Assembly (NCBI GenBank): GCA_024663395.1
Contig: JANFAH010000016.1
Span: forward strand, 868,001-932,000
Length of the DNA: 64,000 bases
Reading direction: 5' to 3'
Source: Pisolithus tinctorius
Lineage: Eukaryota > Basidiomycota > Agaricomycetes > Boletales > Pisolithaceae
Position numbers and translations under genes: made by a program. The notes beneath the pieces were generated by a model. That model saw only the letters and a list, made by a program, of their open reading frames with translations, ran no database searches and was not told where the DNA came from. Shown here one piece after another: positions 3,926 to 59,279 of this stretch (the first letter of the stretch is position 1; the number at the start of each line of letters is the position of its first letter).

Positions 3926-3939
3926 GACGACCAGATCCC

Positions 3940-5975
3940 ATGATCGGAGAATGGGTGAAACGAACGGACGCTACCCTGCGATCCACACCTTCAAATGCGT
4001 CAGGTATACGCAACCCACCAGTACGTCGAGTGAAATTGATTGTAAAACCGCCAAAGGCGTCGCCGGCACAAGAGGATGGTAGGGAAGGCCCCGCCTTAAC
4101 AGGGGACCCGGACCTACACATCGAAGGGAACGGTGGGAACGGGGACAGTGGAACCTCTAAGGACTCACCTGCCCGACCCATCGCAGCGAAGATAACTGCA
4201 CGACGGCGACGATCTCCCACACCCCCGGCAGAAACTGGCCGTCCCGAGACGGGCATGGAGTTTGCTAGACGGATGAAGGATCGATTCGTTCTTCTGGGAC
4301 CAGGCGAACGAATGAAGGGGGGAAAGGACAGAGAACGTCCCCCTATTACGGATACACACGATGCACGCATTGCAAACACGTTACAGGACACGTGCTCGCT
4401 GCCGAGTACGGAACAACCCGCATCACACACGAGCGACACTTTGACTAGTACAGGGATCAAGGCCCCATTGGTCGTATATCCGGGCAATGAAGGTGTGCTC
4501 ACAGCGGCACAGCATAAGTACGACAGAGACCCTTTCTTTAAGCAAATCATGGACGAGCCACAGGTGTTCAAGAATTTTGAAGTCACGACAGATGGCTATA
4601 TTCGCCTGAAACTCACAGATCGTACCGTTCTCTGTGTCCCGGACATAGAGGTGGACGGCAGACGAATTAGAGAGACTGTCATAGACCATGCTCATTCGCT
4701 ACTAGCCCATCTAGGTACTAAGAAAACAGTATCGTACATACGCGAATTCCTGTGGTGGGATTCTATGGTGAAAGATGTCACCGCATTTTGTACATCTTGT
4801 CAAACCTGCCAACGAAGCAAGCCCCCTACTCACAAACCGTTTGGACTCCTGAACCCACTGCCCGTACCTTCGAGACCTTGGGAAGCGATCGGGGTTGATT
4901 TTGTGGGACCCCTTCCCGAATCCAAGGACCGTAACGGAGAATATGACTCCATAACTGTGATCATAGACTTATTAATGTCTATGGTACACATAGTGCCGAG
5001 TAGAACCACCTACACCGCTCGCGAAGTGGTGGAGTTAATGTTCGCCGAGGTATACAAGCACCACGGTTTTACCTCGGGCGATAGTTAGCGACCGAGACGT
5101 CCTATTCACGAGCATTTTCTGGAAGCATCTTAATGACCTAATTGGGATAAGGCAAAAGATGTCCAGTGCGTACCACCCGGAGACAGACGGCGCCACTGAA
5201 CGCGCCAACCGAACTATTGCTCAAATGTTGAGATGTTGTATCGGTCCAAACCAGAAGGACTGGGTATCTCGAATACCTGCCATCGAATTTGCTATAAACA
5301 ACGCGACATCGGAGTCGACAGGATACGCACCTTTCTTTCTGAACACTGGAAGGATGCCTCGACGAATGATATGGGATGCCCCAGCAAAGGACGAGTACCC
5401 GAGTGTAAGAGTGTTTGTGAATAAAATGAAACTCACCTTATTGGACGCTCATGACGCCATCCTGAAAGCGCGCATTAAGCAAACGACAGGCGCTAATAAA
5501 AAGCGCCGCGCTTGTCTGTTCGTCAAAGGCGATCTCGTGTACATCTCTACGAAGAATATTAGCCTGTCAAAGGGAACGTCAAGGAAGCTCGTACCGAAGT
5601 TCATTGGTCCCTACCGCATCTCGGAGGACTTCAGGAATAACTCCTTCTGCGTCGAGCTACCAGATCCTCTGAAACGGAGAGGTATACACGATGTCTTTCA
5701 TTCATCGCTGCTAAGGGTGCACATACCTAACGATGACCGTAAGTTCCCCAGCCGAATGGACGACCAAATTCCTGAGTTCGGGGGAGCCAACCGCGAATGG
5801 GCTGTCGATCGGATAATTAGACACTGCGGCAGTTTTTCGGATGCGATGTTCGAAGTCCAGTGGACAGCTGGGGACCGAACGTGGTTACCATATGATGAGA
5901 TCGCACACTTAAAGGCTCTTACCGATTATTTCGAGGCCATTGGGGTTGATGGGATTGAGAAATTGAGGGACGCAG
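3940..5975 (+). pseudogene. integrase with C-terminal chromodomain-like module
   Basis: After a low-complexity linker (3940-4480) comes an integrase. The HHCC zinc-binding module lies at about 4685-4815 (H...H, then CTSCQTC). The catalytic core starts at the VDFVGPLP motif (first Asp, about 4894), has the second Asp in SDRD (about 5090) and the Glu in the ETDG-TERAN region (about 5180-5205). The frame changes at about 5085, between the first and second catalytic acids, so integrase is split. After a GPY-like stretch (about 5602), residues encoded at 5790-5950 fit a chromodomain-like fold (WAVDRII ... WLPYDEI ... YFEAIGV). Such modules can direct integration to particular chromatin. Confidence 0.85.
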
Positions 5976-6080
5976 GCAATGGGGGCTCGTCGGACGACGA
6001 CCCCCAGGTGTTCTTGGGACACTTGGCACCGCAGGTCTGCGGAGCCCATTTAAGCCGCCCATGTCCCAACTGTAAAACTC

Positions 6081-7493
6081 GACCCACATACCAGAACTCC
6101 CCTTTGGCTAGACCATCTCGACCTCGGAACCACCAAGCTAACGCCCGTCCTCGCACAAACCGTCCATCTCGTCCCACTACTCGTCGTCATCGTTCTCCCG
6201 CTCGCCTACCCAAGACCTCACGCCACTACCAGAACTGCCCTCGTCAGGCCTACCCTCACACCGACCATCATACCCCCTCGCGTGCATTCTATAATCCTAG
6301 GCGTAAAAGCCGCAGGCACGACAGTCACGGTCGAAAGGTCAGGCACAGACAAGCTAGACCTACCATTGATAGGTGTACCCCTCACCCTCGCAGAGGCAAC
6401 CATAAATCAGCCCATTGCCAGAATAGTCGACGACATCGGTCGCATACTCCCCCCCTGATCATTCGACCTTCTAGGCAGCAGACCCTAAGCCCAGACACCA
6501 TAGCTACACTGCAGCACACGCTATCTGCAGTGGTCAGTGAACTCCAGAGTCTAACTATCGACCACTTACCTGACACACGACTGCCCTATACGGCCAGCAT
6601 GTCGGACGCCGCTGAGAATAACCTAATCGAGAGGATTAACCTGGATTTCTTTGCTATCTGGGATACTACGGGCTTGGGAAACCCTGAAGGGCGAGTACTC
6701 GTCCACCGCGAACAAGTCCGTTCCTACTTCCAATATGATAAAGCTCTGCGGCGGAAGGATGGAGATCCACTTGACGTACCTGCTGGATACCTCCAGTTCT
6801 GGGATGCCTATAATAGCAACGCTACTGCAAGGTCACGGTTTGCGTACTACGAGCCGGGGGACAACGCTCGTACAGTCATCACAGGTCCGGGCCCCTACTA
6901 AGAAAGAGGTCCTGGGAGCGGATGCGGACCTGCGAAGTAAGGAAGAGAGGGAGGGGGGACAAGTACTCAACGGTGCGGAAACAGAGACACTAAATAGTAT
7001 GCTCTGGGACGCGGCGGAACGACTCAAGCGCCAACGCGAGCGCTTCCAGCGAGGCTATCAGGATCGCCGTGGCCGTTGGGAGGATGATCGCCATGCCAAG
7101 GGCCCACTGGGTGGACGTCCCAGTTCATCATCCGTGGAAGCTCGTCGCACTGGAAAGTCGAACTCGAGTAAGCGCAGGGAGGCAACTAGGGCTGGTAGCT
7201 TCCACAGGAATAATAAGACGCCTACCCGTTCGCGCTCGCCTGCCCCCGTTGCTAGCTCCTCTACTATCACCCTGGATGCGATCTCCCACTACGGCGTCTT
7301 CCCTGACCACACTGGCATGCCTGATCACGGTCCCTCTAATGTCGCTGTCGGTTCGGTAGGCGTGGACATCTCCATCGAAGGTCTTGAGGAGGAGTACGGA
7401 GAAGAGTACGATGGCGTAGCAGACGCCGAAGGCGAGGATGACACGATGGAACAAGGCGGAGACGCAGAAATTGCCGGAGGTGTTGCTGAGTAA
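6081..7493 (+). pseudogene. extra ORF downstream of integrase in the gypsy element, unknown function
   Basis: Coding-like sequence continues past the chromodomain in three frame pieces: 6081-6461 (rich in V, L, T, I), then about 6455-6900, then about 6890-7493. The first switch coincides with a run of seven C residues at 6449-6455. The middle piece contains a plausible globular stretch (MSDAAENN... to YLQFWDAYN). The last piece is Arg/Ser-rich and then strongly acidic at its C-terminus. I do not recognise a family. It is not an obvious envelope protein: no signal peptide or membrane segment is visible. It may be an accessory protein or a second gag-like product particular to this element lineage. 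Confidence 0.5.
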
Positions 7494-22407: not shown

Positions 22408-25261
<2,854 letters not shown>

Positions 25262-25915: not shown

Positions 25916-28854
25916 CTACTCAGCCAGAATGTGATACGTCTCTTTATCTGCAAATGTGTTTAAATAATATTGGTCGTATGCCTCCATACAAGTCTCGCTG
26001 CATGCATCCACTCCCAGAAGTACTGTGTTGTAGACAGGTACCAGTTCCACAGCATGAATAACATTGGTCAATGGGACGATGCCACTTGCACCTGCGGAAG
26101 AAGGGGGAATATGTTGGACTCTGTATAGTCCAACGCCGGGATTTTGCTCAGGCAGCCAGACAACGCGAAAATAACGGACATAAATGAGAGGGACGGGGCC
26201 AAGATAAACGGGAAGTTCCTTCTTTGTCTTCGGCGTGAATATTGCCCGCACCTGAGCAACATCTAGGAAAAGAGTCAGTAGTGTTTTCTTGGAGTTATAA
26301 TGTAGGGTATACATACCAAAGTTCACATTGTCATTCACACGCTTCAACAACACTGCATCGCAGTTTCCAAGAGGGTGAGAGTCTGAGGGAGGGAAGGCCT
26401 GAACAACCTGGCTTCTGCATATGTATCGCGTCTGGAATGACGAGTGCAGTTGAATGCGGAACTTATTCCATAGAGAAATCATGCCATGAGCGTCCCAATG
26501 CTCGGTTGGACACCCACACGAAGCAGCAGAGATGTAGTCGGATATTACCTGTGGGAGGTCCGGGAGTTTGTATGTCACCTGCATTTCAGATACCATCAGT
26601 GTTGCACGGTCGGGGAGGACTGTGACATGGAACGCAAATGCTCCACTCGACGACGAAAAGCATTTGGGGTCGTTGAAGTGATTTCGAAAAGGCCGAGGTC
26701 CTCGGAACGTAGTCTCTTTCTCCGGAAGAACACGATTGATAAAAGATAATGCCGGGTCCACACCGGTAACTTCCTCGTTTTCGACCATAATTGCAGTATC
26801 GAGCGCCAAATCCGAACTGCAGAGTAAGATGTAAAGGTCGAAGGACCGGATAGTTTCCTCGCGATTGAGGAGCTCGACGACTTGATCAACGAATGTGTTG
26901 CTCCGTCGGTTCGTCTGCTCAAAGGGTGTCTTGCAGTGGGTGATCAGGAGCCGCTCAGTCACATCTGCTGTGTATTGGATGAGAGCGCCATTCTCCTTGA
27001 TGTGGCAAGCAAAGGTGTGCATAAGTTCCAGTTTCGGGATGTTGAAGTTGTCCATGGAGCCCTTGGCTCCCCTTCGAGCCCCCACGTCGAGAATGGCGTG
27101 TTTAGTGGCGTGGAATGCCTGCAAGGCGGCAGTCATCGATGCGATAGACGAGTGGGTGTGGATAGGTTGTTGCGCCCTATAAATGAACTCCACCATGGAG
27201 CGAACAGCATAGACGAATAGAGGCGGAACGGCGCCATCTAACATGGGGACGATGGTCCTCTCGATATCACGATGGTCTCTGCCCATCATCTGCTTCACAT
27301 GTGAGACGCCAGAAGCAAAATGCCTGACGCCAACGCGCTTGTGTTGAATCTTGTATTGCGTATCGAGCAGGTGATCGCCGGCAGCTTCCTTGGACCATTT
27401 GAGAACGTGGTCAAAAAAGAACTTGTGACAAGTGTGGAGAATTTCCCCCACCAAGAAGTGTGCGGGGTCAGCGAACTTCCAGTCCCTCCAGAAAGGGTGG
27501 TGTACGCCCAGTAACTTCTCCGCTTTGGCAGCCTTCTGGAAAGAAGGGATGTTCCATGCCTGGGTATGTGTGCACAAATCGACAATCTGCTGCAGCGTGT
27601 AGGAGCCGGTTCGTGGATTTTGGGGTACACTGTCACCGAAGTCGGAGAGTACTGCGGTGGTGATAGGGGAAGCATTTTTGGCGACACAAGTGACTAGCTG
27701 TTGCTCGGGAAGATCTGCAATATATGCGACTAGAGGGGTAAAACAGTTTCAAGTAAAGCCAGTTGGGTCTGTGAGATTGATACCATCCGATGTGACTGTC
27801 TTGAGAGAGGCAAAAACGATGTCCATACACCGGTGAAAAAGGCGTGAAGTAAGAATTGTTTGGAAATCTGGGTGAACCTCGAAGACAGGAACTGGCATGA
27901 AAGCAATGCAGTGCCATGCATGAGATGATGCCTGCATCCTCACATCAGACTGGATGTTGCCAATCGTAATAAAGACCGGGTGCATTTCCAGCCCTCCAGT
28001 GTGCCTCGTCACTGGGGTTTTGTCAGAGGCGATAATGATGGGAACGATGGTTGCGCCCTGAGGAAGCTGCACCTGAAAAAAACAAAGATAAGTGACAAGG
28101 TGGTCACCAAGCATAATCTGCACGTACTTGGATGTCAAATGCACACGTTGCTGTGAAAAACTCACTATACTCCCTTTCCGGTCCTCGAAAGACCATGTGT
28201 GGGTCGTAGGTCATGAAGTTTGCGAAGATGGGATTGGAGAAAAGATCCTTGACGACCTCGAGGGCATCCTGCCATATGAGCTGAATGGGGTGTATGGATT
28301 TATAGCCTTTGAACTCTACCGTAGTCCTGCGCCATTGTGGGCCATGAGGCAAACTTGCCATCCACCCAAGCAATTGATCTGCTGATTTAAATGACGGTTT
28401 AACCCGAGTTTCGAACTAAGGATATCATTAGCAACAAAAATCAGAGTCTCAATAGCCTTACCCATTTGAGCTTGAGAAACTGATTCATCTGTGATTGAGT
28501 GAAGTTCAACGCCAGGAACTTTGCCAGTTCCCATTCACCCTCATCCGCGAAGGGATAGTACAGTTGATTTTGACGTCGTCTTTCATGTTCGCTAGCCTTC
28601 ATCCGGTCAAGGAAAGTGTCACCTCTATTGTAGATATATCCGGAGGTTGGATAATAGTGACCCATAACGTCGTTCTCCTCGAATCCACGCTGGAAGGCTG
28701 GCGGTACAGGAATGTGCTGCACTGGGATTGCATCAGTACAGGTCCCCCCTTCAGTTTTGAGGTGATTTAGTAGTGCAGCGGGTGAAGGAAATATTGCCTG
28801 ACATCCAGGACAATCGAAGGTGATGCTGTTACCATCATCGCTCATAGATGCCAT
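25916..28854 (-). pseudogene. Plavaka-like transposase (CACTA/CMC-type, DUF6830-like), one internal stop
   Basis: Likely the element's transposase. Exon 1 (28462-28854) begins with a C2H2-like finger (CPGCQAIF...H) and a conserved EWELAKF...LTQSQMNQFLKLKW-type block. Exons 2 (28128-28415) and 3 (25916-28072) follow in phase 0. Exon 3 carries the signature region GATIVPIIIASDKTPVT..., then a His-rich middle (DRDHRDIE, 27250) and the long C-terminal domain ending in TAG at 25916-25918. One in-frame TGA at 27749-27751 interrupts exon 3; both sides continue in the same frame. A GTATGT...CAG segment near 26253-26319 is probably a further in-frame intron. With a single nonsense codon over about 900 residues, this copy has only just died, unless the stop is an error. 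Confidence 0.8.
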
Positions 28855-32913: not shown

Positions 32914-35753
<2,840 letters not shown>

Positions 35754-43147: not shown

Positions 43148-46016
<2,869 letters not shown>

Positions 46017-46621: not shown

Positions 46622-48346
46622 TCAGAAGCCACCCAGACCGCCGTCATCTTCATCCAAATCTCCTTCCTCTATTTCCTTGGCGAGCTCCCTCTCACGTTCT
46701 CGGGCTCCCTGCGCGGCGGCCAGTTCTTTCCTATGTGCGTCCTGGGGATAACGCATTGCCTAAAACATCCAGTTAGCGACGAGCGATTGACATGGCAGAT
46801 CGAAGATGAAGATTTACCTTCACACTCTGGTTGTGGAGATCCATGCAGTACGCAATTCTTCGCATGTACACCTCACTGACGTCAGGTCCATATCCATTCT
46901 TTCTACCTTCACACTCCATCCAACCTTTTTCATGAATAATCCGACCGTCGATAACGCCATCACGGATGGCCTTTCCAACGATGTATTCCGCATCTTCTTC
47001 GGAGTCAAGGTGGAGCTTGAGACAAATGTCACGCAAGGAGATGCGTGAATACGATAGGGAGAGGCGACGGATGCCAGTCTTAATGACGTTCTGCCGGAGA
47101 CGAACGATCAGAGTGTACGTTTTGTCTGCTTCGAACTGTGCCGCATGTTTCGTCAACGTCGCCTGAAATTCTGAGAGGGAACCCGTGCGGACCACTGATA
47201 GGTGGATTACTAAGGGGGTCAAGGACATAGCATGAGACTGCACATACCCTTGACGATGTCAAAATAGGCAGCAAGAGCTTTCTCGAGGACGGGGTGCCTA
47301 AATATGCTACGGTCGGGAATATCTCCCATCAGCAATTCGACAACCACGAAAAGCTTGTGCACGGCTTGGTAGAACCCAGGCGCTGTCTTCGCAGGTGGTG
47401 CACGGCGAATGGCTGCTTGCAAATTCGTGTGAGCAGTAGTATAGTTTAATTGCACTGCCTTTATGCGCCCCAAGAAGTAGTGGTAGCGAGCAAATTGGGG
47501 GTTACTGGCGGAGGTAGGGAATGTGGTTTTCGAAACCAGTTTATCTGCCTGATCGTACAAGTTGTAATGGAGGTAGCTTCGGAGAAGACGGTTAATGAGG
47601 GAAGCTTGCGTATCATCGTCGTGACGCAACGCGGCTGTCCGCTGAGCCGCCAAAAACAGTCTGAAATACAGACGGAATTTAATGTCAGTTGCGAGAAAAG
47701 ACAGAAACGCTTACGGTCGTGCGTCGGCGAGTTCACCACCTAGTTCGTATGATCGTTCGACAGCGAACCATATTTTCGCTGCAATTGGATCCACACTTCT
47801 ACGATTTAGAGCCTGCATTTTATCCACTGTCTCGTTGGACAGTTGGATGGATTTGGCGTAATTCTCCTTGGAAGTGTGGAAGTGGTGAATGATGAGAAGA
47901 CGGAGGTATATCTCCACTTCGGGAACGGGGTCAGAGGTAGGTTTCGAAGGCGGTGTACTTGGGGGGTAGGCAGTGGAATCGACATCCATCTCGGCCTCTG
48001 TAGCTGGGGGCAGCCAGGAAAGTAGCTTCGCCTTTACGGCCGAGTCTATAACCATAGCACATAAATATTCCGTACAAGAGATGTAAACTTATCGATATGA
48101 CGTACCTGCTGGGTAGTTCTCTTCTATTGCATCTCGCAAGACCTTATCGTTGGTGCGTTTCCTGAGCGCAGTGAGTGATCGCAATACACGGTGAGTAAAT
48201 CGCGGTTCGAGCTCGGACACGGCTCGCTCGACAAAAGCAATGTTGACCTTGATTTCGGCAGTCGGCGTGAGGGTCTTCTCCTCGTTCGTTTTCTCTTCAT
48301 TCTTCTTTTCCCCGTCCTTTGGTGGTTTCGCGTCTGTACTGGCCAT
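46622..48346 (-). CDS. RPN3: 26S proteasome regulatory subunit Rpn3 (PSMD3)
   Basis: A PCI-domain scaffold subunit of the 19S lid. Exons on the minus strand: 48106-48346, 47715-48045, 47248-47660, 46818-47194 and 46622-46759. They sum to 1500 bp, 499 residues (yeast 523, human 534). The N-terminus is Lys/Glu-rich and charged. Helical repeats follow, with the family landmarks EIYLRLLIIHHF, LINRLLRSYLHYNLYDQADKLV and FARYHYFLGRIKAVQLNYT. The PCI winged-helix region is ISLRDICLKLHLDSEEDAEYIV...IHEKGWM, and the C-terminus is acidic (EIEEGDLDEDDGG) with TGA at 46622-46624. All phases fit. It is divergent from PRE4, another proteasome gene, with 348 bp between start codons. Confidence 0.95.
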
Positions 48347-48694
48347 GGTTGCTCTGTCTGATCTGAACGCAGTCCTCGCAAGTGACGCGTCCCTTCCACT
48401 TGGGACAACCCAAATTGGGAAGGCAGGTCAATGGTCACGTGATGTTCGTTTCTGGACAGAACCCCCTATTGCGAAATACACTTTGTGGACGAGCCCGTTG
48501 TTGGAGCTTCCGGATGACATGGGAGCACACAGAAAGAGATCTATACACTTACTTTGTTGCAGAGGTCCTCCCCCTTCAACATCCCGCGGTAGTGTGGAAA
48601 TGGTCGCTGGCCGAATCAGGGTATTACATAAGCCATTGTGCTTGCGCGTCCATGGTTTGTGGTGGGACGCGTTCGCATCATCTCTCTGACAGCC
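48347..48694. promoter_or_regulatory. shared divergent promoter of RPN3 and PRE4
   Basis: It contains a perfect palindrome TCACGTGA (48436-48443, a CACGTG E-box/Cbf1-type site), a reverse CCAAT (ATTGG at 48414-48418) inside the near-palindrome CCCAAATTGGG, and no clear Rpn4-type GGTGGCAAA site. Coordinated expression of the two subunits is an inference. Confidence 0.55.
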
Positions 48695-49768
48695 ATGGAC
48701 CACTTTCCTACCAACTGGGGTCGCCCTGTAAGTGCAGAATTCCTTGCTTGTGAGGAATATTAATGGTGGACTGTCGTCATAGAGAAATGATATGTTCGAT
48801 GCCTATGGCACCTATCCCATCCATCAGAGGCCCGACAATCGTCCAAAAGACACATTTGCTGACAGTGTTCAGCGTACACAGTATGGCCACACATCTGTAT
48901 ATTCATGCGCATATACATAAACCCTCCACAGGCAGCCGATCGTTACCGGCACGAGTGTGCTTGCTATCAAATATAAGGATGGTATCATGATGGCAGCGGA
49001 CAACCTTGGTATGCCTTCTCATCGCTTCTAGACTATCCATTGTTGAACATTATTCTACAAAAAGCATCGTATGGCTCCCTCGCTCGTTTCAAGGACGTTC
49101 AACGTCTCCATCCCGTTGGGAGGTATACCGTTATCGGTGCCGGCGGTGATATGTCCGACTTCCAACACATCCAACACATCCTCGAAGAGGTGCAAATAGC
49201 GGAGAGCACTCAGCAGGATGGACACGAACTCGGGCCTGTAGAAATACACGAGTACATGTCGCAGGTCATGTACGCGCGGCGTTCGAAGTTGGACCCTTTG
49301 TGGAACTCCCTCCTCATTGGCGGGTTCAAGGATGGAAAGAGGTATGTACTTTCTCTTGAAGGAGCTGCGATGAGACTGGTTGTTCGTCCCTGATACAGGT
49401 TCTTGTCATATGTCGATTTGCTTGGGACGACATATTCAGCTTCGACGCTTGCCACTGGCTTCGGAGCCTACATTGCACAACCGCTACTCCGCAAAGCAGT
49501 AGAAGGGCACGAAGATGATCTCACAGCAGAGCAAGCACAAAATATATTGGAATATTGTATGCGTGTTCTCTTCTACCGCGATGCTCGAAGTCTGGACAAG
49601 GTACGCACATCATTGGCCCATCCTGCCTACGATATCCTGAGATAATCGTTGTAGTACCAAATTGCAACTGTCACTGCGGAAGGCGTGAACATTTCAGGCT
49701 CACTGAAACTGCAGACTTCGTGGGACTTTGCCGAGAACATCAGAGGGTATGGCGCTCAGACCCAGTAG
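48695..49768 (+). CDS. PRE4: 20S proteasome subunit beta-7 (Pre4/PSMB4)
   Basis: A non-catalytic beta-ring subunit of the 20S core. Exons: 48695-48727, 48783-48880, 48932-49008, 49065-49341, 49399-49600 and 49655-49768. They sum to 801 bp, 266 residues, the same length as yeast Pre4. The N-terminal propeptide includes NRPKDTFADSVQRTQ. The mature part begins QPIVTGTSVLAIKY, which lacks the catalytic N-terminal Thr arrangement of beta-1/2/5, as expected. Landmarks: ASYGSLARFKDVQRL, GAGGDMSDFQHI, MYARRSKLDPLWNSLLIGG, ATGFGAYIAQPLLRK, RVLFYRDARSLDK. The C-terminus ends WDFAENIRGYGAQTQ. The tiny first exon (11 codons) explains why it is not visible as one ORF. Confidence 0.95.
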
Positions 49769-49915
49769 TATGTCGAACCTTTGTATCACCGCACTGAATT
49801 CCTTGTAACCATTGACTCAACGTAAAAACAACAACTAAACGAGCGATCTTTGCCGTATACGGGACGGTCCATCGCTACGCAACAAATGTAGAAGAATATT
49901 GCCTTGCCCTATGCA

Positions 49916-51436
49916 CTAATTATCGAAATGCTCCGTGAACCTCCAATAGGGAGGTGGTGAATTGTTCACAGGTGCGTCAACTTCGTCACCGCTGTGCCCC
50001 GAGGAAGAGGACGTCTCGCTATGCTCCCGCGGCGAGGACGATTGCGTAGGGGCTGCCGGGAGTTTAGTAGCGCTACCAGAAGCTACGTTTCCTGTGTTAC
50101 CCGGGATCGTGACCGAAGGACCCGCGGTCGGCGCCTGTTCCACGATGGCTTGCTGAGACTGAACACGATCTGTGTGTTGCAATATGGCACGATGAGAGTG
50201 AACGCGGTTCGCGTGTTGCAAGATGGCGCGAACACGGGTTGTGAGCAGTCTCGTTTCATCCACCGTAAACACAGGAGGCCATGTAATGTGTTCTTGGCTG
50301 TGTTCGCTGGGGCTGCTAGAAGTTACGATTCCTGTATTATCCGGGGATGTGAAAGACGGGCCCGCGATCGTTTCCTGTTGCAGGGTGGTTCGACGAGAGC
50401 GAACACGGTTCCTGTGTTGCATGGCCGCCCGAACACGGTTGACGAGCTGTCTTCTTTCGTCAGTCGAGAATAGAGACTCCGACTCATCGCGCCGTCTGCC
50501 AGAAGCCCTTGTAGTGTTTTCCTGTTCCCGGCGGGTATCAGGACCGCGTCCTCTGGAATTCATATAGAGGTATTCATCAAGAGCACTATCTGAAGACGAT
50601 GAAGCCAGTCGGCGGCTATCACTGGCATCACCCCTGTTTCGCGAAGCATCACTCTCACTCAAGGAACGAACCCTGTGCCTGGTCCCCCGGCGCCGCGGAC
50701 GCCCACGAGAGCGGGACGACGAGCTGCCCTGAGTGGAGGGAGAGCTTCTTCCCTCCCGACTGGATTCGCTGTCTGTCTGCGAGGGGGGTTGGTAGGTGAG
50801 CTTACCGTCTTCACTTTTGGGTATAAATACGTATGCTTACCTGGTCGGAATCAGAGTTGAGAAACCGATATCTGATTCTAGGTTGCCCAGACAACGCAAT
50901 CGCAATTGGGTTACTCCGCGGAGGGTAGTTCGCTGCCGAAGGTGCGTTATTGTCGAACGGGTTGGGCTGCTCCGGCGGGGGGTTGAACGGGTTGGACTGC
51001 GCTGGCGGGGAATTGAGTGGGTTAGGTCGTTCTGGCGAAGGATTGAACGGGTTGGGCCCTTCCGGTGGGTCATTGAACGGGTTTGGCTGCTCGGACGGGG
51101 GATTGAACGGGTTGGGATGTACTGGTGGGGAATATCATCAGGAACCTGCTCGTGGACTCTGAAGTCTTCCTCGAGTGCTACTCTTCGAATGTACGATATG
51201 CGTATTGACACAGCAGCGACACGAAAATTGCAGTTACGCCAGCCGACACACAAGCCACAAAAACGAGCGCCGTTCGCATGTCGGAGAAGATCTAGCGTTA
51301 GCAGTGTCAGCCTTGTTTCGTGGATTAATCGTGAACGGCCCACAGTCTTGAGCCAGTCGGCTGGGGGATTGTTGGCAGCACTGACGCATAGCGAAAGATG
51401 GAGTAGGATGACCGACGTCCACCTGTAGCGTTTCAT
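49916..51436 (-). CDS. putative type I single-pass membrane protein with tandem NPF repeats and PPPY tail
   Basis: Minus strand, exons 51344-51436, 51195-51291, 50841-51121 and 49916-50776. The sum is 1332 bp, 443 residues, all phases consistent. Exon 1 encodes a signal peptide (VILLHLSLCVSA then ANNPP) and a very short ectodomain. Exon 2 encodes one membrane helix (TALVFVACVSAGVTAIFVSLL) flanked by tyrosines. Exon 3 encodes six 10-residue repeats, five with NPF and one with NPL (NPFNPPSEQP type). Exon 4 encodes a long Ser/Arg-rich tail with two similar blocks (ETRLLTTRVRAILQHANRVHSH and ERRQLVNRVRAAMQHRNRVRS) and ends near SPPPYWRFTEHFDN. NPF tripeptides bind EH domains of endocytic adaptors and PPxY binds WW domains of Rsp5/Nedd4 ligases; the function here is an inference. 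The exon 2-3 junction is the least certain. Confidence 0.7.
50949..51121 (-). repeat. 30-bp minisatellite encoding NPF repeats
   Basis: Six tandem units of 30 bp (core TTGAACGGGTTGG on the plus strand) lie inside exon 3 of the gene above. Each unit encodes 10 residues, so copy-number change stays in frame. Confidence 0.85.
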
Positions 51437-52167
51437 GACGCAGCGACGCAGAAGGGAGATTGACTGCTTCGTGATGGGTCGCGACAAACCTTACTTGCTC
51501 GAAAACCGTATGTAATCTGGTGAACGACGAACAGGTCAGCCACCAGGGAACACATTTGATCGTGAACGCAATTGATGAGGGTAAGAAATCTAGACGCATG
51601 GAAGGGAAAATATATGGCCCTTGATTCAACAGACCTGCTTCTTCACAGTTTGGACCGACGTGGAGTCCTTCTGTGTTCTAGGCCCGCTGACGAGTAGGCA
51701 CTACACCGGCGATGAGTTGTGAACACCCCCAAGATCCTTACGATGTACATATTCATGCACATGGCGAAAGACGATTGGCGGTTTACCAAACGTACGAGTC
51801 CCCAGAATAAACGATAGACATCACATCTCCTATCTACCAAGCCTTATCTGAAATTTGAATGGGCAGCGCGACGCGTCGATGCACGTGACCTATGATAACA
51901 ATTGGCCCGCTTTTTTTGCAAGACGACTGATGCTATGGTTCGACCTGGTCAGTCCACTACCCTAAAGAGCGTATGTCCGACCCACGTACGCAGAGATGAC
52001 TCATATATCAAGCCGCCTTCCTTCGATCTGCACTCCCAAAGTGAAGTGTAGGGCCGCGTCATTGCAGATTGAAATCCCACACTCCTGCATTGCCGTGCCA
52101 AGTGGCAGAGGATCGACGCGCATATGTTCTTCCGTCACAAAGTAGGTGGGGATAGTCGTAGCTGGCA
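51437..52167. other. spacer between the first two membrane-protein genes
   Basis: No additional gene supported. Short ORFs at 51643-51840 and 51234-51629 have no recognisable content. Confidence 0.5.
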
Positions 52168-53112
52168 TTAGGCAGTTCGCTTTATAGCCGTAGCGGATTT
52201 GGACTTGTCCGCTGGCTGCTCAGTTACGGAAGGTTCTGCATGATCACCATGTCGTAGGATGGATGGAGGAACTTGGTCGAGGTGTGTGGATTGCTTATTA
52301 ATGTTAGCTGAAGCTATGGGTCCCGTGTCATGATGGCGGATAGCACCCCTTCTCTGCTTAAGTGCCGAATGGACTCGTCTTCGGCTCACGTCGACGAAGT
52401 CATGGAGACCTGTGGTATCTTCTCCCTCGTGAGGAAGCGAGGCAGATGGCCTTGCTTCACCGTGATTTCCGGTGTGTCCGGCCATTATAGAAATTTTTCT
52501 CAAGAGTATTCGGCATCGGTAATCCAGGTACCAAGAGTGAAAGCTACCCGGAGGGAGCGAGGTGTCATCGTCGTCGCCGCTATCGCTACAGAAGCAAAAC
52601 TGCCATTGCTCGTGTTCTGGGATCGACTCAAGGCTTGTTGGTATGAACGATATCCGTGATCGGCGGGACCGTGAAGAACGGCCCATTGGGGTGTCCACAT
52701 CGGGTACTGGGATTCCGGTCGACGGTGTCCGCCTTTGGAGATCGCCGGATGCTCGAGAGGATGGCTCGGTATTCGCAGATTGGTCTGATGGACGTGTGCT
52801 GTCATTGGTTGCCGTGACTGCAGATCCTAGTTCGGGGTCATCCGAAGTCTTCTTCCGCCTGCCGGCTACTAAGGCGTACACCCCCACTGCAAGCACTCCC
52901 GCTATGGACGCTACGACACACACAGTAAAAGCGATTTGCTTTGGTGGGTCCGAGAAGGCCTGTCAGAAGTTACAGTAGAATGGTAGGTCTTCATGATGCG
53001 AAAATATATGACGACTCACACCGTTGGACTCCCGCCTGGAGATGCTGCCGGTGGCAGCAACTCCCTGAAGAAGACGAAATAAAGTGAGCCACAGCAAAAC
53101 CGAGACTGACAT
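52168..53112 (-). CDS. putative type I single-pass membrane protein, paralogue 2
   Basis: Exons 53020-53112 and 52168-52959 give 885 bp, 294 residues. Exon 1 is exactly 31 codons, as in the first gene, and encodes a signal peptide (SVLLWLTLFRLLQGVAATG). Exon 2 starts AFSDPPKQ (compare IFSDMR in the first gene), then one membrane helix (VCVVASIAGVLAVGVYALVAG) followed by a stop-transfer RRKK. The rest is a disordered Ser/Arg/His-rich cytoplasmic tail with an acidic patch (CFCSDSGDDDDTSLPP). It has no NPF repeat or PPPY. The shared first-exon length, intron phase 0 and post-intron motif support common descent with the neighbours. A small in-frame intron inside exon 2 (near 52530) cannot be excluded. 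Confidence 0.65.
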
Positions 53113-53884
53113 CGCATCGGGGAGATAGTGGTATGTCTGCGCTCTCTTGACCACCGTCGTTTAAGACATTGAAATGAAAGGGAGTTGGTGGGTACAAGTA
53201 AGCCACCTATAAGATGGCAAATCCAGGATATTTAGGGGGATTTAAGGGGGGGAAGGGTGTATTTCAGTTACTCAGCAGTTAAGGAAAGCGATTCTTGTGG
53301 AAGCCATAATTTGATGTCGACCTTGGGCAACTAAACGTCATCTCCATATCTCTGAACGAAATGAGGCAGTAGATGTCAGCTGCCCTGACCATCATCACTC
53401 TATTACAGGTTATCCCGTTGGGACGGCATCCAGGACTTGGGTTCTGAGCAAAGAGCTCAAGCGTGGAGATTGCCGCCCTTCCCCACGGGGGCCAAGATGT
53501 GGGGTTACTAAATGCACCGGATTACTTCCCGCTGCAAGGTAGCAGCCTTCGCAATGGAAACGGCAACGAGACGCTGTTTTACGCCTACCCTTGCATTTCA
53601 ACAAGTCCTACCTCATGCGTAGTAAGTATCATTTTTCTTCCGAAATAAGCTGGTACATCGGTCTGAAGAGTTTTTTCCGCAGTGTAAATAGTAGGATAAG
53701 GCACGATTGCATGCAGCGGTTGGCATAAGTATCAACTCAGGTGAGTTAAGTCGACGTCTGCCAGTGGTTGTACGTTGCCTACCGGTCGATCCGCCTGTTC
53801 GATTTTCTACGACATAGCTCATGGCAAGACTATCCGTGGTCTTCCGTGGCCCTTGTCTTGTTACAGTTTGGAAAATACAGTAAG
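53113..53884. other. spacer between membrane-protein genes 2 and 3
   Basis: Nothing recognisable. One short poly-G/purine tract (about 53226-53260) lies in the likely promoter of gene 2. Confidence 0.5.
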
Positions 53885-55020
53885 CTAAGCCTTTGATCTC
53901 GCAGTATATGGTGGGGGCCGATCATTAACAGGGACCATAGGGCTTCCGTGATGGTGACTAGGCAGGTCTACACGGTTTGTGTGTCGCTGTTGTTCCATGT
54001 CACTTGGATTTTGAGACACCGCCCCTTGACGGTGCATGACGGAACCCCCTGCGATGTACTCCTGTGGTATCTGCTTCGAAGGAGATTGTGCGCATTTAGA
54101 AGGGTAGGTAATGGTGTGAGTTAACACAACAGTCTCCATGTCACGGAGGGTTGTGCCATGCTGTTGTCCCCGATGGGACGAGTTCGAATGATGTCTACCA
54201 TGGCCTTCTTGGCATCCCTGCGACACCCAGGAAACACTCGGGCATGCGCGACGACGACTGCCCTGGCGTGCATAACGGGGACCGCCTGGAAGAAATGGTG
54301 TTTCTTCCCTCAGCCACGAAAATAGGGGCACCATGACGTACCTGAACTGGGATTTTGTTCATTCACAACAAGCGACCCATAATGTTCGCTCGCCTCAAAC
54401 TGTCCTCCTTTTGAAGAACGATGTGAAGAGGGGGAATGCGAGACCGCCCGCCAGCCGTGATCCTGTCCTTGTGGGCGACGACGGCGTCGCTCACGGGCGG
54501 GAGTTTGGCTGTGACTGGTTCTTCTTGACGATTTAGGTGACGGCGGATGTGCTGGAATCCTAGTGTTGAAAGTATTCACAGCGTCATTGATGGGAGATTT
54601 CAGGGAAGCGCGACTGGGCGGGTTACTCGTCGAAGGAGTCGGAGAAGGTACTTTGGTGGCCGTTTCAGACGTTCCCAACTCTGAAACGGAAATGTCGTTG
54701 CTTAGTAGCTGAGGGGAAGTAGCCTGTCCCTCAGTCTTGCGGAACCTCCTTTTGCGCACGCAACCCGCGATGATGTGCACCAGCCACATGAGGATGGCGA
54801 TTATTACAACAGAGGCGCACACGACAACAACAGCCAGCTTTCGTGGTTCGGTGATGATCTGCAGCGTAGTGGTCAACTGCGACCTGCAAAAGTGCATACA
54901 ACGACCTACACCCTCGATTACTGACTTGAAGCTCCTCGAGGCGTTAGAAGTGGCAATAACACACGGAGCCACACTGAGAAGAATGAGGGGCATCATCCTT
55001 GGCGACTGAGAGAACGACAT
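53885..55020 (-). CDS. putative type I single-pass membrane protein, paralogue 3, PPPY tail
   Basis: Exons 54910-55020, 54342-54858 and 53885-54285 sum to 1029 bp, 342 residues. Exon 1 (37 codons) gives a signal peptide (MMPLILLSVAPCVIATS). A phase-0 intron follows, then a membrane helix (LAVVVVCASVVIIAILMWLVHIIAG) and the stop-transfer VRKRR. The tail is Ser/Pro/Arg-rich with polybasic RERRRRR. It ends in VNDRPPPYTARSKA, the same PPPY as in the first gene of the cluster. The ectodomain is only about 20 residues. The family is unknown to me; short-ectodomain, long disordered-tail architecture resembles some fungal cell-wall sensor-like proteins, but no WSC or cysteine domain is present. Confidence 0.65.
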
Positions 55021-55527
55021 GATACCTCCCGGTCAGGAGGAACGTCACGTTCACAAAATTTGAGAGGCCTTGCAATGCCTCTGTTCCCTGTCGCGGCTAC
55101 GAACGGATTCGATACACAGGGGTTAGCAAAGTTATGGGGCCATCACAGTCCCAGCGAGATCGGGATAGCTACCCACCGGGACTGTGGCTTTGCAGGTGAT
55201 CAGCTCAGATTAGCAGCCTGCCACACTTTCCGGCGCGTGTGCCCCTATGGTGAACTTAGGGGCTGCGTCGGCTTCAGCTCATTTTCGTGGGGTAGTTGAA
55301 CACTTTAGCTTCGTAAAAATCGAATCAATCAAACTGCTCTCTCGCTAACGTCACGTTCCTCAGTCACTGCTCGTAGCCTTTCCACAAGTTTTACTTCACA
55401 TAATAAGTAAAGCCTGACGACATTGACATCCACGATGACAGCTTTAATTCCTTTTCCTTCTCAAGGCAAATATAAAAATCTCTGAGCACACCTACTTTGC
55501 TCCAATATCCAACGGACTCTAAGAAAA
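55021..55527. other. intergenic, includes a TATA-like site
   Basis: No gene supported. ATATAAAAATC near 55468-55478 sits about 50-60 bp before the small ORF that follows. Confidence 0.4.
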
Positions 55528-55898
55528 ATGGATGTCCAAACTGCCAAGAAATCATGCAAGCGCATCCTTGTCGTCTTCCTGTTCACGAGACCTCAAACAT
55601 CCTATTTTTATGCTTTACTCCGTGGGACATCCGTTCACACCGCCATCTACTTTGATGGAATTACGTCCGTCGTCGATCCTGAGCCGAGTTGAGTAGTCAC
55701 AGCACGATGACAGAGAACGGGTGTGCCTTGTTTGCCTTTTGGTTTGCTCCCGAGCATTGCTGACATTTTTTTTTCTCTTTGGTGTCGAAAGCGAAGTATG
55801 ATGTCAAAGTTAAAGGTCGCATTCCGGAAGACGTAGCAGCAGAACTCGAGAGTCGTGGTATCGAGTATCGACCAAGCGACCAGACGAATCAGGACTAA
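55528..55898 (+). CDS. possible small two-exon gene, unknown function
   Basis: ATG at 55528 follows the TATA-like site. Proposed exons 55528-55687 and 55792-55898 sum to 267 bp, 88 residues, with TAA at 55896-55898. The intron (GTTGAG... to a T-rich tract and GAAAG) has a weak 5' site. The second exon reads naturally (KYDVKVKGRIPEDVAAELESRG), with none of the low-complexity bias seen around it. I do not recognise a domain. It could be a remnant of a larger gene. Confidence 0.35.
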
Positions 55899-55959
55899 TT
55901 CGCGATTATACACACCCCTTGTTCTTACCCAACCTCGTCTCTCTCTTTGCAATCAGAGT

Positions 55960-56966
55960 GCCTGTGGAGTATGCCCTATTTACTTTTGTCCTTATGGAGT
56001 GGTAGTCACAGAAGCCTTCGAGTGAGTGCAATGTTCTAACTTCGTTAGTGGATACAAGCCATGGTTCTCTGGCTGGCAGAACACTACATAAATGCCTTCC
56101 ATTGTAGTACTGCTAGTGGTGATCTTCGAGCTTGGCTAGTAATTTTTTTCTATGACTCATTTGCATGTTAAGTCTACCAGCTCTACTGCAGAGTGACTGT
56201 ACTGAACAAAACTATTGAGCATGTCAATGACAACAAGCAGATTCAGGGACTACTTATTTTGTTTTTGTTAATTTCCAAATACAACAAAGCACATCCTTGT
56301 TAACAGTTAGTGTAGAGAGTGGACAAAGGCATAAAACAAAGATGCCTGATGGACCTAGTGAAATGAGTGTCTGATCAATGGAGCATCAGGAAATTAATTG
56401 ATGTCTATCATGCCTTTCACATGCACAGATGGTCAAAAAAGTCCAGATAGTTGCCAGGACTATTTCTAGTAGATTCTATTTCTATTTTGACTATCTGTGC
56501 TATTTTTCTGACTATTTGTACCATTTCTGTCTGACTATCCAGCCTATTTTTGACTATTTGTACTATTTGTGACTTTCCAGACTTTTTGTGAGGGTGACTT
56601 TTTGACAATCTTGATAGCAGGCTCATGTAGTTCACAAATAATGCATCACAAGATCTCATTCATTTACCACAAAGCATAGTGAGTGCTTGTGTCTCAATTC
56701 AAGCACAAGTGGGGATTGGACTTGAAGGGTGGAAAGAATGATGATTAAACATTCATACTAACTGGTGTCTGTGTGTTTGAAGGAGGGGTGGGAGAGAGTA
56801 TGTGATATATGTATGAAATATTTCTGCACTGTGCAATGTGGGCAATTACAATGAGGAGACATCCAGCCAAGTCTGTCCTGTCAACTCATCAGCAAGATAC
56901 TCATAGTGGACACAAGATCTTACAGATGCTTTGATGTAAATCAGGATTAACAGCAAAATAAAGCTC
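55960..56966. other. AT-rich, repeat-like DNA without genes
   Basis: Base composition shifts to AT-rich. 56455-56600 holds degenerate tandem repeats of a GACTATTTGTACTATT-type unit. No coding signal. Confidence 0.5.
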
Positions 56967-57421
56967 TGTCACATCCATGACTCTCAGACTCAAGCCTGGT
57001 CTGGTCCAGACCACTAACCCCTATCTCAAGTCAAGTCTGGACCTAGTCCAACCTAGAAAACTCAACTCTGGCCCTAGGTAACCCAACTCTGGTCTAGATT
57101 ACTCAAGTCCAATGTTTTACCCCTATATCCAGTCCACTCTGGGCTCTTGGTCTTGTGCTGCTCCACCCCAGTCCTCCCAGGTCCATGTCCAGGTCACCTG
57201 GACATAACTCCAGTCTGTTTTCCAATGTTTGTGCTATATTTAGTTTTAGTCCTCCTGTGTCCAACTCTGGTTATGCTGGTCACTGGACTTTGGCTATTAG
57301 TCTTGGCACAGCCTCTGTGGCTGTCCACCCCTTGTTAATCATCTTGCTAATAGCTTATTAACAAATCTGGCTCTATGCTTGTTACCCCAGACTGGCCTCA
57401 TGTATTTAACCCCTGTACATA
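56967..57421 (+). repeat. LTR-like repeat family X, copy 1 (interrupted)
   Basis: Begins TGTCACATCCATGACTCTCAG and matches 60333-60998 (direct) and 58600-59279 (inverted). It contains CATGTATTTAACC, a possible promoter, near its 3' end, where a mariner-like element is inserted at a TA. Confidence 0.65.
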
Positions 57422-58431
57422 CAGTGGTCCAAAAAACTGTCCCAATGTTTGAGCAATTTTCATTGATGGTGTCATGACCATGACACCAGCGTAAGCCCCT
57501 AACACCTACTCCACCCTCTTCTGACCTGTTCCCGCGCTCCTCCGACCCTCCTGACACATCTCCACACCTCTCTGAGGTCCCCCGTCCATGTTCTGACCAA
57601 CTCCGCTCAACTCCGCCCTAAGGTTAGTCATGTGGGCTGTCGGACTTGTGGCCCTGCATTCTAGATAGGGTTCTGCCCTCATGTCGGTTTTCTCCATTCT
57701 TCTGCTCCTTTGGTATTTACCCTCTCTTCCTCGTTGTAGTAGTTTCCTTGTCTCAGTTAAGGTCCCCGTCATCCCTACTCTCTATCCCTTGTGTCAGAAG
57801 GACTCTAACCCACTATACACTTATTGGTTTACATTCCGTACTGCACCGCCCTTGACCTACATCGTATATAAGGCCACGTAGTACTCCGATGTAATCAGTA
57901 CGAATATCGAATAAAGTCCCCACCTTCGACTCCCTCTCGGTCCCCTCTGGAGTTTCATCTCCACTTCCTCTGAGTCCACTCCGCCTCTGAAATACGAGGG
58001 CTGAGCTCACGCAAGGGGGCAGCACACTAGCTGAACCCAACACCCTCTCATCCGACCTCCGACCTCTGACCCCTGAACTCCGACTCCGACCTCAGCCTCT
58101 GAGACTTTCCTTCATACCCCTCCGCTCACTGTTCGTCGAATATCTCACCACCCAGTGGTTGGATTCGCTTCGGACTTTGACCGCTGTACTCCGCAGCCCA
58201 ACCCGCTCCAACTCCGCCCTAAGAAGGAGCCAGGGGTGTTGTCCGACTTTGACAGATGGGAGTGTAGCATGTCAATGACTAAGAACTGGTCCAAGTGGTT
58301 AGTGTGGGGGGTGAAGCCCATGGTCTGGGCTTTCTAACAAATCCTAGGTGATGATGGCCAGGTGAGAACTAGTGGGGGTATGACCCATTTGGTTTGGTGA
58401 CTCATTGGGACAGTTTTTTGAGTTTGAACTG
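57422..58431. mobile_element. Tc1/mariner-like non-autonomous element, hosting a solo LTR
   Basis: Starts CAGTGGTCC after TA (57420-57421). A perfect 17-bp inverted repeat, AAAAAACTGTCCCAATG, occurs at 57431-57447 and 58403-58419. The right-hand target dinucleotide reads TG, so it is mutated or the end is off by a base. No transposase ORF. Without the solo LTR inside, it is only about 220 bp. Confidence 0.65.
57470..58254 (+). repeat. solo LTR with 5-bp target duplication
   Basis: 785 bp with TGTCA...TGACA ends, flanked by GATGG at 57465-57469 and 58255-58259. It carries a TATA box (TATATAAGG near 57867) and AATAAAG (about 57912), the usual LTR promoter and polyadenylation elements. No internal retroelement sequence remains. 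Confidence 0.85.
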
Positions 58432-58599
58432 TGAAGTATGGGTTTACCCTTGGGTGACCAGGCTTCAAGACTAGGTGACAGGGGCTAAGTCCAATTGACT
58501 AGAGTCAAGGCCAGGAGACAGGGGCCAAGTCCAGTTGGACCAGAGTTAAGGCCAGAGGTCCAGACTTAAGACCAGGAGCATGGGAACAAGGCTGGTAGC

Positions 58600-59279
58600 A
58601 TGGGAAACCAACTGGTCTTGGAGTGTGCACAGGGGGAAGCCAGTCTGGGGTTGGAACTACCTCCCTTGGTCTCAGCTTATGTGCTGTACCCTTATGCAAG
58701 CTGGGGAGAGGTCCAGGACAGGGGCTGGGGATAGCTTAAGGCTTGGCCTTAGCTATAGAGTAGGCTCAGAGTGTAGTACAGAGTTGAGGGTAATACTTAG
58801 CTGATATTCTGACTGAGGTGCTACAAAGTATGTACATGGGTTAAATATGCAAGGCCAGTCCAGAGTGATGAATGTGAAGCCAGACTTGTGAATAAGCTAT
58901 TAGCAAGAGGATTAGCAAGGTGTGAATAGCCACAGAGGCTGTGCCAAGACTAATAGTCAAAGTCCAGGTGACCAGCATAACCAGAGTTAGATGAGAGGAC
59001 CAAGCTAAATATAGTACAAACAATGGAAAACAGACTGGAGTTATGTCCAGGTGACCTGGACATGGACCTGGGAGGACTAGGGTGGAGCAGCACAAGGCTG
59101 GGAGGCTGGAGTGGACTGGAGATAGGGGTAAAACACTGGACTTGAGTTATTTAGGCTGGAGTTTGGTTTCTTAGGGCTGGAGTTAGGTTCTAGGCCAGAC
59201 TAGGACTGGGCTTGACTGGAGATAGGGGCTAGGGGTCTGGAGTGGACTGGGCTTGAGTCCAAGAGTCATGGATATGACA
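58600..59279 (-). repeat. LTR-like repeat family X, copy 2 (inverted)
   Basis: Reverse complement of the copy at 60333-60998. Its start (TGTCATATCC) is at 59279. Confidence 0.7.

Follow-up and report, generated by a model that had tools for sequence, protein, structure and literature searches.

A tandem cluster of three related, unnamed membrane protein genes in Pisolithus tinctorius

The locus and its gene models

The window is the whole stretch of 64,000 nucleotides that was analysed from the ectomycorrhizal fungus Pisolithus tinctorius (contig JANFAH010000016.1), and all positions refer to it. At 49916-55020 on the minus strand, three neighbouring genes, here called A, B and C, were confirmed as real and conserved, in agreement with a preliminary description that had drawn three adjacent minus-strand genes from the sequence. 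Their features are as follows.

53885..55020, minus strand: gene A, 342 aa, three exons (55020-54910, 54858-54342, 54285-53885), orthologues in alignment A1
54910..55020, minus strand: gene A exon 1, 37 codons with a phase-0 end (...KSVIEG), coding for the signal peptide and the larger part of the short ectodomain
54772..54858, minus strand: gene A exon 2 start, IITEPRK juxtamembrane motif and transmembrane helix (hydropathy peak 3.08)
53906..53917, minus strand: gene A PPPY near the C-terminus, also in P0008 and P0009
52168..53112, minus strand: gene B, 294 aa, two exons (53112-53020, 52959-52168)
52867..52959, minus strand: gene B exon 2 start, AFSDPPK juxtamembrane motif and transmembrane helix (from sequence and hydropathy)
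49916..51436, minus strand: gene C, 468 aa in the C37 allele, exons 51436-51344, 51291-50841 and 50776-49916, exon 2 being two bases short in the window
51205..51291, minus strand: gene C exon 2 start, IFSD juxtamembrane motif and transmembrane helix (from sequence, hydropathy and conservation)
51122..51194, minus strand: second intron of gene C in the preliminary description, not an intron; in the C37 allele it codes for the stop-transfer stretch and its continuation
50955..51121, minus strand: gene C NPF repeats, a tandem 30-bp (10-residue) unit with five NPF and one NPL, spacing 30, 30, 30, 30
49946..49957, minus strand: gene C PPPY, inside the C-terminal SPPPYWRFTEHF, a block common to the window species, P0016 and P0017

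Exon 1 comprises 37, 31 and 31 codons in A, B and C, respectively, and ends in phase 0 in each case, while exon 2 opens with IITEP, AFSD and IFSD, which bears out the (I/A)FSD opening claimed for two of the genes. All three proteins have a signal-peptide-like start, an outside segment of approximately 20 residues, a single helix with the lead-in [IVA][FI][ST][DE] and a conserved Cys, a basic stop-transfer stretch and, beyond it, approximately 230–400 residues of tail. The tails are long, as had been noted, and of low complexity. The description of them as disordered does not plainly apply to gene C, whose tail includes an internal duplication that was modelled as a helix at low confidence. The AlphaFold model of the gene C orthologue P0017 has a mean pLDDT of 40.7 and is thus too poor for a fold search.

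A Pfam-A search with eight of the proteins at E values up to 10 returned no family above its cut-off and sub-cut-off matches only. Among solved structures there was no match for gene C and one helix match for gene A (E 0.84), and none of the papers listed by a literature search dealt with this family.

With the introns initially proposed, the exon sums of 1029 bp (A), 885 bp (B) and 1332 bp (C) are all whole codons, but the sum for gene C is so for the wrong reason, because the 73-bp stretch at 51122-51194 that had been taken for a second intron is coding and the window lacks two bases. One A is missing at 51207 (AA rather than AAA) and one C at 51131 (CCCC rather than CCCCC), and both are present in the other two copies of the locus in this genome, namely contig C192, which is near-identical, and allele C37, which is 98% identical. 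Exon 2 of gene C is open through 453 bp in the C37 allele, giving a gene of 1407 bp and 468 aa, and the orthologues P0015-P0017 also include the corresponding stretch. Another acceptor for the supposed intron led to an early stop. Of the three copies, only C37 has A, B and C all open; in C192 all three are broken by other 1-bp indels.

For gene A, a donor that gives an exon 1 of 33 codons also closes the frame (1017 bp). However, SVIEG at the end of exon 1 is kept in all five rows of alignment A1 (as SVLEG in one), and the 37-codon donor was therefore preferred. The middle part of gene B, which agrees poorly with P0002 from Pisolithus marmoratus and where in-frame stretches are missing in P0005-P0007 (left out of alignment A2), is the least certain coding part, and the simplest model was kept.

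Homologues and common ancestry

We found 17 homologous proteins, the search for gene C having scored the 7987 candidates that shared most words with it. Seven of the 17 carry an organism name and all seven are from Pisolithus, the only genus among named organisms in which the family is seen so far at this search sensitivity. The orthologues of gene A in alignment A1 (P0012-P0014 left out) share 92 % (P0008), 59 % (P0009), 58 % (P0010) and 56 % (P0011) identity with it, and within the genus identities to most relatives are only 52–67 %. Such divergence, together with named homologues confined to Pisolithus at this sensitivity, would suit fast-evolving, effector-like surface proteins related to symbiosis, whose conservation within the genus would be due to their facing the host root. 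We consider this improbable, as the helix and basic stop-transfer stretch should anchor the protein in the fungal membrane with its bulk inside, and gene C is constrained between haplotypes (see below).

Nine of the 17 homologues (P0002, P0008-P0011, P0013 and P0015-P0017) span the junction of exon 1 and the membrane exon, and all nine join the two without an insert, P0002 at the same point as gene B; the arrangement predicted for related genomes is thus found at the protein level. The phase-0 intron directly before the motif was seen in the DNA of this genome for A, B and C, the relatives being available as proteins only. The [IVA][FI][ST][DE] motif is present in 12 of 12 N-terminal sequences (P0013 was used in this comparison) and the common exon 2 start beats shuffles, while the helix Cys is invariant in all nine rows of alignment A5, which holds nine of the 12 N-termini. 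An unanchored search with the N-terminus of gene C matched A and B at their exon 2 starts (E 0.03 each), and the reverse searches from A and B toward C were at noise level.

The intron before the motif, the helix with its shared Cys and the one search with the gene C N-terminus support the common ancestry of A, B and C that had been proposed earlier, with the three genes probably being old tandem duplicates of one ancestral gene. This support is strongest for A and C, then for B and C, and is weak for A and B taken alone. The preliminary view that the locus encodes a tandem group of related membrane proteins with short ectodomains and no family name is supported as well.

Protein searches of the same genome with A, B and C yielded no paralogues outside this locus and the other two copies of it; five weak matches (E 0.013–0.12) were to low-complexity parts of the tails. 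As gene A did not retrieve B or C, this is a weak search for paralogues. An exact DNA pattern, an acceptor followed by a stretch coding for [IVATM]F.DP, occurs at 40 places compared to 28 in a backwards control. Among the 30 places that were read, a helix follows in gene B and its allele (peak 2.54), and in L076 (VFRDP) a hydrophobic run (1.84) comes late, ahead of a stop; the other 27 stay below a hydropathy of 0.5. The ten left out include the C192 copy of gene B. Genes A and C do not fit this pattern, hence paralogues like them would be missed.

Constraint and tail motifs

Between the haplotypes, gene C is clearly depleted in non-synonymous change, with 15 non-synonymous and 20 synonymous differences (dN 0.0142, dS 0.0575, Fisher p 3e-5). 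Gene B, with six of each (dN 0.0091, dS 0.0268, p 0.09), exhibits a tendency only, and gene A, with no non-synonymous and one synonymous difference, is uninformative.

The PPPY reported near the C-terminus of two of the genes is followed by six residues in A and by nine in C. In gene A it is found in three of five rows (window, P0008 and P0009), with LPLY in P0011 and no counterpart in P0010, and the C-terminal 12 residues (0.56 identical) are no better kept than the tail (0.61). In gene C, [LP]PxY is found in three of four rows, the P0015 model ending upstream of the C-terminal PPPY block. Identity over the last 14 residues is 0.95 among the three rows with sequence there, of which two come from close relatives of each other. 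An additional PY motif, PPEY, lies close to the membrane in P0016 and P0017. A PPPY within the last 20 residues was reached by 0.27 % (A) and 0.39 % (C) of shuffled tails. Since 4.9 % (A) and 7.4 % (C) of shuffled tails have PPxY somewhere by chance, the motif alone is weak evidence.

The NPF repeats that had been noted in one gene were counted as five in gene C, a number reached in 0 of 20,000 shuffles. The four gene C rows have five, three, two and three NPF (at least two in every row), and as the number varies and the array arose from one minisatellite, it counts as one event. To judge from its low-complexity sequence, the tail bearing it is presumably exposed. Gene B has no [LP]PxY in the two rows tested and no NPF.

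These features leave some room for an ordinary orphan family whose function is weak or absent, in which PPPY and NPF would be chance products of proline-rich drift. Such an origin would accommodate a repeat-built NPF block, a PY motif that is inconstant in A, a motif-free B, the chance rate of 5–7 % for PPxY anywhere in the tail and the lack of significant constraint in B and of information in A. It is unlikely given that the genes are kept open in several species, that gene C is clearly constrained and that its helix and C-terminal block are well kept.

The helix is among the best-kept parts of the proteins, at 0.80 identity between orthologues in A and 0.86 in C, which would fit a contact surface. 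Surface sensors or receptors, in which the ectodomain or helix senses wall, membrane or a partner, the tail is a signalling scaffold and PPPY and NPF serve only the protein's own turnover, would likewise have a signal-peptide-like start, a single helix and a long tail of low complexity, and motifs for turnover are to be expected on cargo no less than on adaptors. Exon 1 of gene C (0.73) also equals most of the tail in conservation. However, the least conserved part of gene A (0.55) is exon 1, with the signal peptide and the bulk of the ectodomain, and an ectodomain of only about 20 residues, in which no domain was found (Pfam-A), makes a sensory function somewhat doubtful.

A possible adaptor role

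From their sequences, the proteins would be of type I topology with the tail in the cytoplasm, and PPPY and NPF make a role of A and C in sorting or signalling plausible. The best explanation, to which we assign a probability of about 0.4, is that the cluster encodes tandem-duplicated, PPPY- and NPF-bearing type I membrane adaptors (or self-regulating cargo). The helix would contact other membrane proteins, and the C-terminal PPPY of A and C would dock the WW domains of a NEDD4/Rsp5-type ligase, leading to ubiquitination of the adaptor and its partners and their movement to endosomes. In gene C, the NPF repeats may bind EH-domain coat proteins and speed uptake. Receptors for both kinds of motif are present in this genome, in the form of EH-domain loci and of two loci with both WW and HECT matches (C9:759213-760953 and C5:1535095-1536963). 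This mechanism is not applicable to gene B, which has neither motif and may act as a partner or serve a different function. Counted against the adaptor reading were the lack of motifs in B, the inconstant PPPY of A and the failure to find homology to a known adaptor in Pfam-A or among solved structures.

Nutrient exchange between Pisolithus and tree roots depends on surface transporters. There is a slim chance that a family born in or near Pisolithus, combining PPPY and a variable NPF minisatellite on one signal-peptide-bearing single-span protein, sets together with its tandem sisters, via the helix, which transporters or receptors stay on the surface of the symbiotic hypha. If the adaptor reading is true, the cluster would be a lineage-restricted counterpart of Comm, Rcr1 and Bsd2, not homologous to them, which addresses the problem that they solve in other organisms. 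That reading aside, an unnamed gene family common to several Pisolithus species has been recognized and one gene model corrected.

The build resembles that of the Comm/Rcr1 adaptors, without detectable homology. The Pfam family for Rcr1 and Rcr2 is named RCR, and no family of this name matched the A, B and C proteins (Pfam-A, eight proteins, E up to 10). Cytoplasmic PY motifs are reported to mediate the binding of Rcr1 to Rsp5, and Rcr1 and Rcr2 to regulate amino acid permease at the cell surface, though Rsp5 is stated there not to be required for the effect of Rcr1 on chitin deposition, nor the Nedd4 interaction for the control of Robo by Comm at the midline (PMC5578492). Rcr1 and Rcr2, as described there, are likewise short transmembrane proteins with a PY motif, and a single helix with a PY motif on the tail side is found here in A and C, not in B. 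The signal-peptide exon, the [IVA]FSD lead-in and the NPF repeats of gene C were noted from the Pisolithus side only. Drosophila Commissureless, vertebrate PRRG and Shisa-like proteins are described in the same source as short transmembrane PY proteins that bind to NEDD4 ligases and regulate the amount of other membrane proteins at the surface (PMC5578492). These are animal, not fungal, and no sequence relation to the Pisolithus proteins was found (Pfam-A); Shisa proteins have a Cys-rich ectodomain, whereas the ectodomains of A, B and C include no Cys cluster.

Bsd2 and Sna3 are multi-span proteins, and Yap180s and epsins are peripheral. Bsd2, Sna3 and NDFIP-type proteins are PPxY membrane proteins that recruit or bind Rsp5/NEDD4 in the accounts cited (PMC10357820; PMC2171029), and NDFIP2 is given three helices (PMC10357820), in contrast to the one helix after the signal peptide in the Pisolithus proteins. 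In yeast endocytosis, the NPF motifs of Yap180, epsin and Pal bind EH domains, and Yap180s and epsins carry ANTH or ENTH domains (PMC11451990), whereas gene C is membrane-spanning with its NPF on a minisatellite.

Gene models and copies of the locus

The cluster comprises three adjacent genes, each encoding a putative membrane protein:

49916-51436, minus strand, gene C
52168-53112, minus strand, gene B
53885-55020, minus strand, gene A

On recomputation, the introns of the preliminary description give coding sums of 1029 bp for A, 885 bp for B and 1332 bp for C, whole codons in each case, and the models of genes A and B hold. The second intron proposed for gene C (51194-51122) simply spans two frame breaks and was rejected: an A and a C missing from the window at C-AATACG and ATT-CCCCAC are present in both other copies of the locus (contigs C192 and C37), and C37 and the orthologues read through. 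The unaltered C37 allele encodes 468 aa with no second intron and includes QIRISYIRRIALEEDFRVHEQVPDDIPPP, which the earlier model dropped and for which a matching stretch was found in the gene C homologues P0015, P0016 and P0017. The two gaps are most simply explained by homopolymer sequencing error, which is favoured over a true lesion in one nucleus. Gene C relatives begin 12 residues upstream of the start of the C37 model. Intron 2 of gene A is read through in P. albus P0013, and may be optional or misannotated there. In the middle of gene B (52168-52959), P0002, the P. marmoratus model, is a poor match and P0005-P0007 are without some in-frame stretches, hence additional or optional introns are possible.

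The locus is present in three copies within the assembly (92.5 Mb, 221 contigs): one lies in the window contig (C16), another on C37 (98% identical) and a third on the short contig C192, whose listed identity is 100%. We read this as both haplotypes kept together with a redundant contig. In a three-way alignment of 8352 columns, with 60 columns dropped per end, the window contig differed from the other two at 5 columns with an indel and 4 with a substitution, and C192 at 23 and 5, respectively, making C192 the noisier copy; all three differ at 2 columns. Genes A, B and C are all broken in C192 by 1-bp indels of its own.

When C16 and C37 were compared by a count that scores every change singly, constraint was clear only for gene C, where 15 changes are non-synonymous and 20 synonymous (dN 0.0142, dS 0.0575, Fisher p 3e-5). 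Gene B has six of each (dN 0.0091, dS 0.0268, p 0.09) and gene A none and one, respectively. Divergence between these copies in 500-bp bins (48400-56590) is 0.6-6.6% below 52400, 0.8% at 52400-52899 and 0-0.2% above 52900, with one bin at 1.7%. The shift falls within gene B and could reflect gene conversion or a homozygous tract.

Relatives and common ancestry

Seventeen homologous proteins (7 + 7 + 3) were found, and the seven bearing organism names are all from Pisolithus (P. orientalis, P. marmoratus, P. croceorrhizus and P. albus), with gene A sharing 92% identity with its P. orientalis counterpart, which places the source of the window close to that species. The arrangement of exon 1 and membrane exon seen in the window recurs in these relatives: the junction is covered in nine of the 17 (P0002, P0008, P0009, P0010, P0011, P0013, P0015, P0016 and P0017), and all nine join where the window model does, though for gene B this is P0002 alone. 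The other eight begin within the helix or directly behind it. NCBI holds seven of these nine, and these entries probably derive from the annotation of nine Pisolithus genomes with the JGI pipeline and matching transcriptomes, which is described in PMC10066745. For each of the P. marmoratus proteins P0002, P0009 and P0015 (B, A and C) the longest contig is given as 214,526 bp, and for P. albus P0013 (A) and P0017 (C) as 1,119,640 bp; these equal values suggest that A, B and C are clustered on one contig in P. marmoratus, and A and C in P. albus.

In all three proteins an N-terminal hydrophobic segment ends in the small-X-small pattern of the signal-peptide rule (VIA before T, VAA before T and VSA before A in A, B and C, respectively), and exceeds the hydropathy cut-off of 1.6 (19 residues) in gene A only. 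Behind the putative signal peptide lie approximately 20 residues, predicted to be outside, and a single helix of strong hydropathy, peaking at 3.08 in A, 2.54 in B and 2.51 in C. Basic residues mark the inner side of a membrane (positive-inside rule), and those behind the helix would thus place the tail inside. Between orthologues the helix is well preserved, with identity of 0.80 (A) and 0.86 (C), compared with 0.55 and 0.73 in exon 1, 0.61 in the A tail and 0.63-0.74 across parts of the C tail.

Right behind the phase-0 intron, exon 2 opens with a lead-in motif, I(I/F)(S/T)EPRK in A, (A/V)FSDPPK in B and (I/V)FSD(M/L/P)R in C; that of gene A, at 0.86 identity between orthologues, is above the A helix. 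The helix follows directly in all three, and one Cys is invariant in all nine rows of an N-terminal alignment. When 30 residues anchored at the exon start were shuffled separately inside the lead-in and inside the helix, shuffles as good as the real pair numbered 0 (A-C), 3 (B-C) and 42 (A-B) of 20,000. Much of this similarity stems from the seven-residue lead-in, which alone was equalled by 1-2 of 5,000 shuffles for every pair, the helix alone being equalled by 37 (A-C), 157 (B-C) and 645 (A-B) of 5,000. Profile comparison gave probabilities of 93.5 (A-C, E 2e-7), 76.7 (B-C, 2e-5) and 10 (A-B, 0.003). Since anchoring biases toward a match, we added an unanchored search of three N-termini against the 64-kb window translated in six frames. 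After gene C itself, that of P0016 (gene C) matched the beginning of exon 2 in A (54858) and in B (52968), each at E 0.030, the next match being at 0.94. The reverse searches were less clear: for P0011 (gene A) the second match was gene C exon 1 (E 0.28), with B only at 4.7, and for P0002 (gene B) it was an unrelated place (0.11), with A only at 2.3. Taken alone, the A-B match is weak, and the link between them goes via C. The gene models, family membership and conservation are supported.

Tail motifs and possible function

PPPY, a candidate WW-domain ligand, lies within the final 20 residues of A and C, a placement reached by 0.27% and 0.39% of shuffled tails, respectively; PPxY somewhere in such tails is not rare (4.9% and 7.4%). 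The gene C block SPPPYWRFTEHF is kept in all three rows that extend to the C-terminal end, and in gene A three rows have PPPY, one has LPLY and one lacks the motif. The gene C tail also carries a tandem repeat of NPF, a candidate EH-domain ligand, with 30-bp spacing (5, 3, 2 and 3 NPF in the four rows), and a duplicated module (50010-50480) whose two copies of ~60-75 residues match within each of the four orthologues (E 7e-14 to 6e-26) and are modelled, at low confidence, as helix. Two loci that each match both WW and HECT, and EH-domain loci, occur in the genome, as expected of any fungus.

On the best reading, the family product would be a membrane adaptor or a self-sorting cargo, which gene B fits solely as a sister with a different job. 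Topology, WW and EH binding, ubiquitination and clients are predictions. Comm and Rcr1/Rcr2 are short transmembrane PY-motif proteins that can regulate the abundance of other membrane proteins at the surface, some Rcr1 and Comm effects being independent of the ligase (PMC5578492), and provide a precedent for regulators of the kind proposed for A and C.

No Pfam family scored above its cut-off for the eight proteins tested, no related solved structure was found for A or C, the two queried, and nothing on the family appeared among the papers listed by literature searches. The protein search depends on shared 5-residue words, and restriction to Pisolithus is valid at that sensitivity, among named organisms. 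Orphan membrane families are frequent in fungal genomes; relatives of this one occur in several species, and its motif set is suggestive, as judged from sequence.

Surroundings of the cluster

The remainder of the window includes:

1445-6898 and 25919-27748, ORFs of retrotransposon type (protease, reverse transcriptase, Tf2-1-like SH3) and an ORF for a transposase of the Plavaka type
23060-23851, 34122-34619 and 43654-44835, plus strand, helicase-related ORFs ~10 kb apart with Helicase_C matches, two with weak DEAD
46776-49390, adjoining the cluster, minus-strand ORFs resembling PSMD3/RPN3 and a plus-strand ORF for a proteasome subunit
56967-59279, upstream of gene A, large imperfect inverted repeat, its arms 188, 140 and 92 nt long with 80-87% complementarity

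The three helicase-related ORFs are possibly repeated copies, and the inverted repeat is perhaps a transposon remnant.
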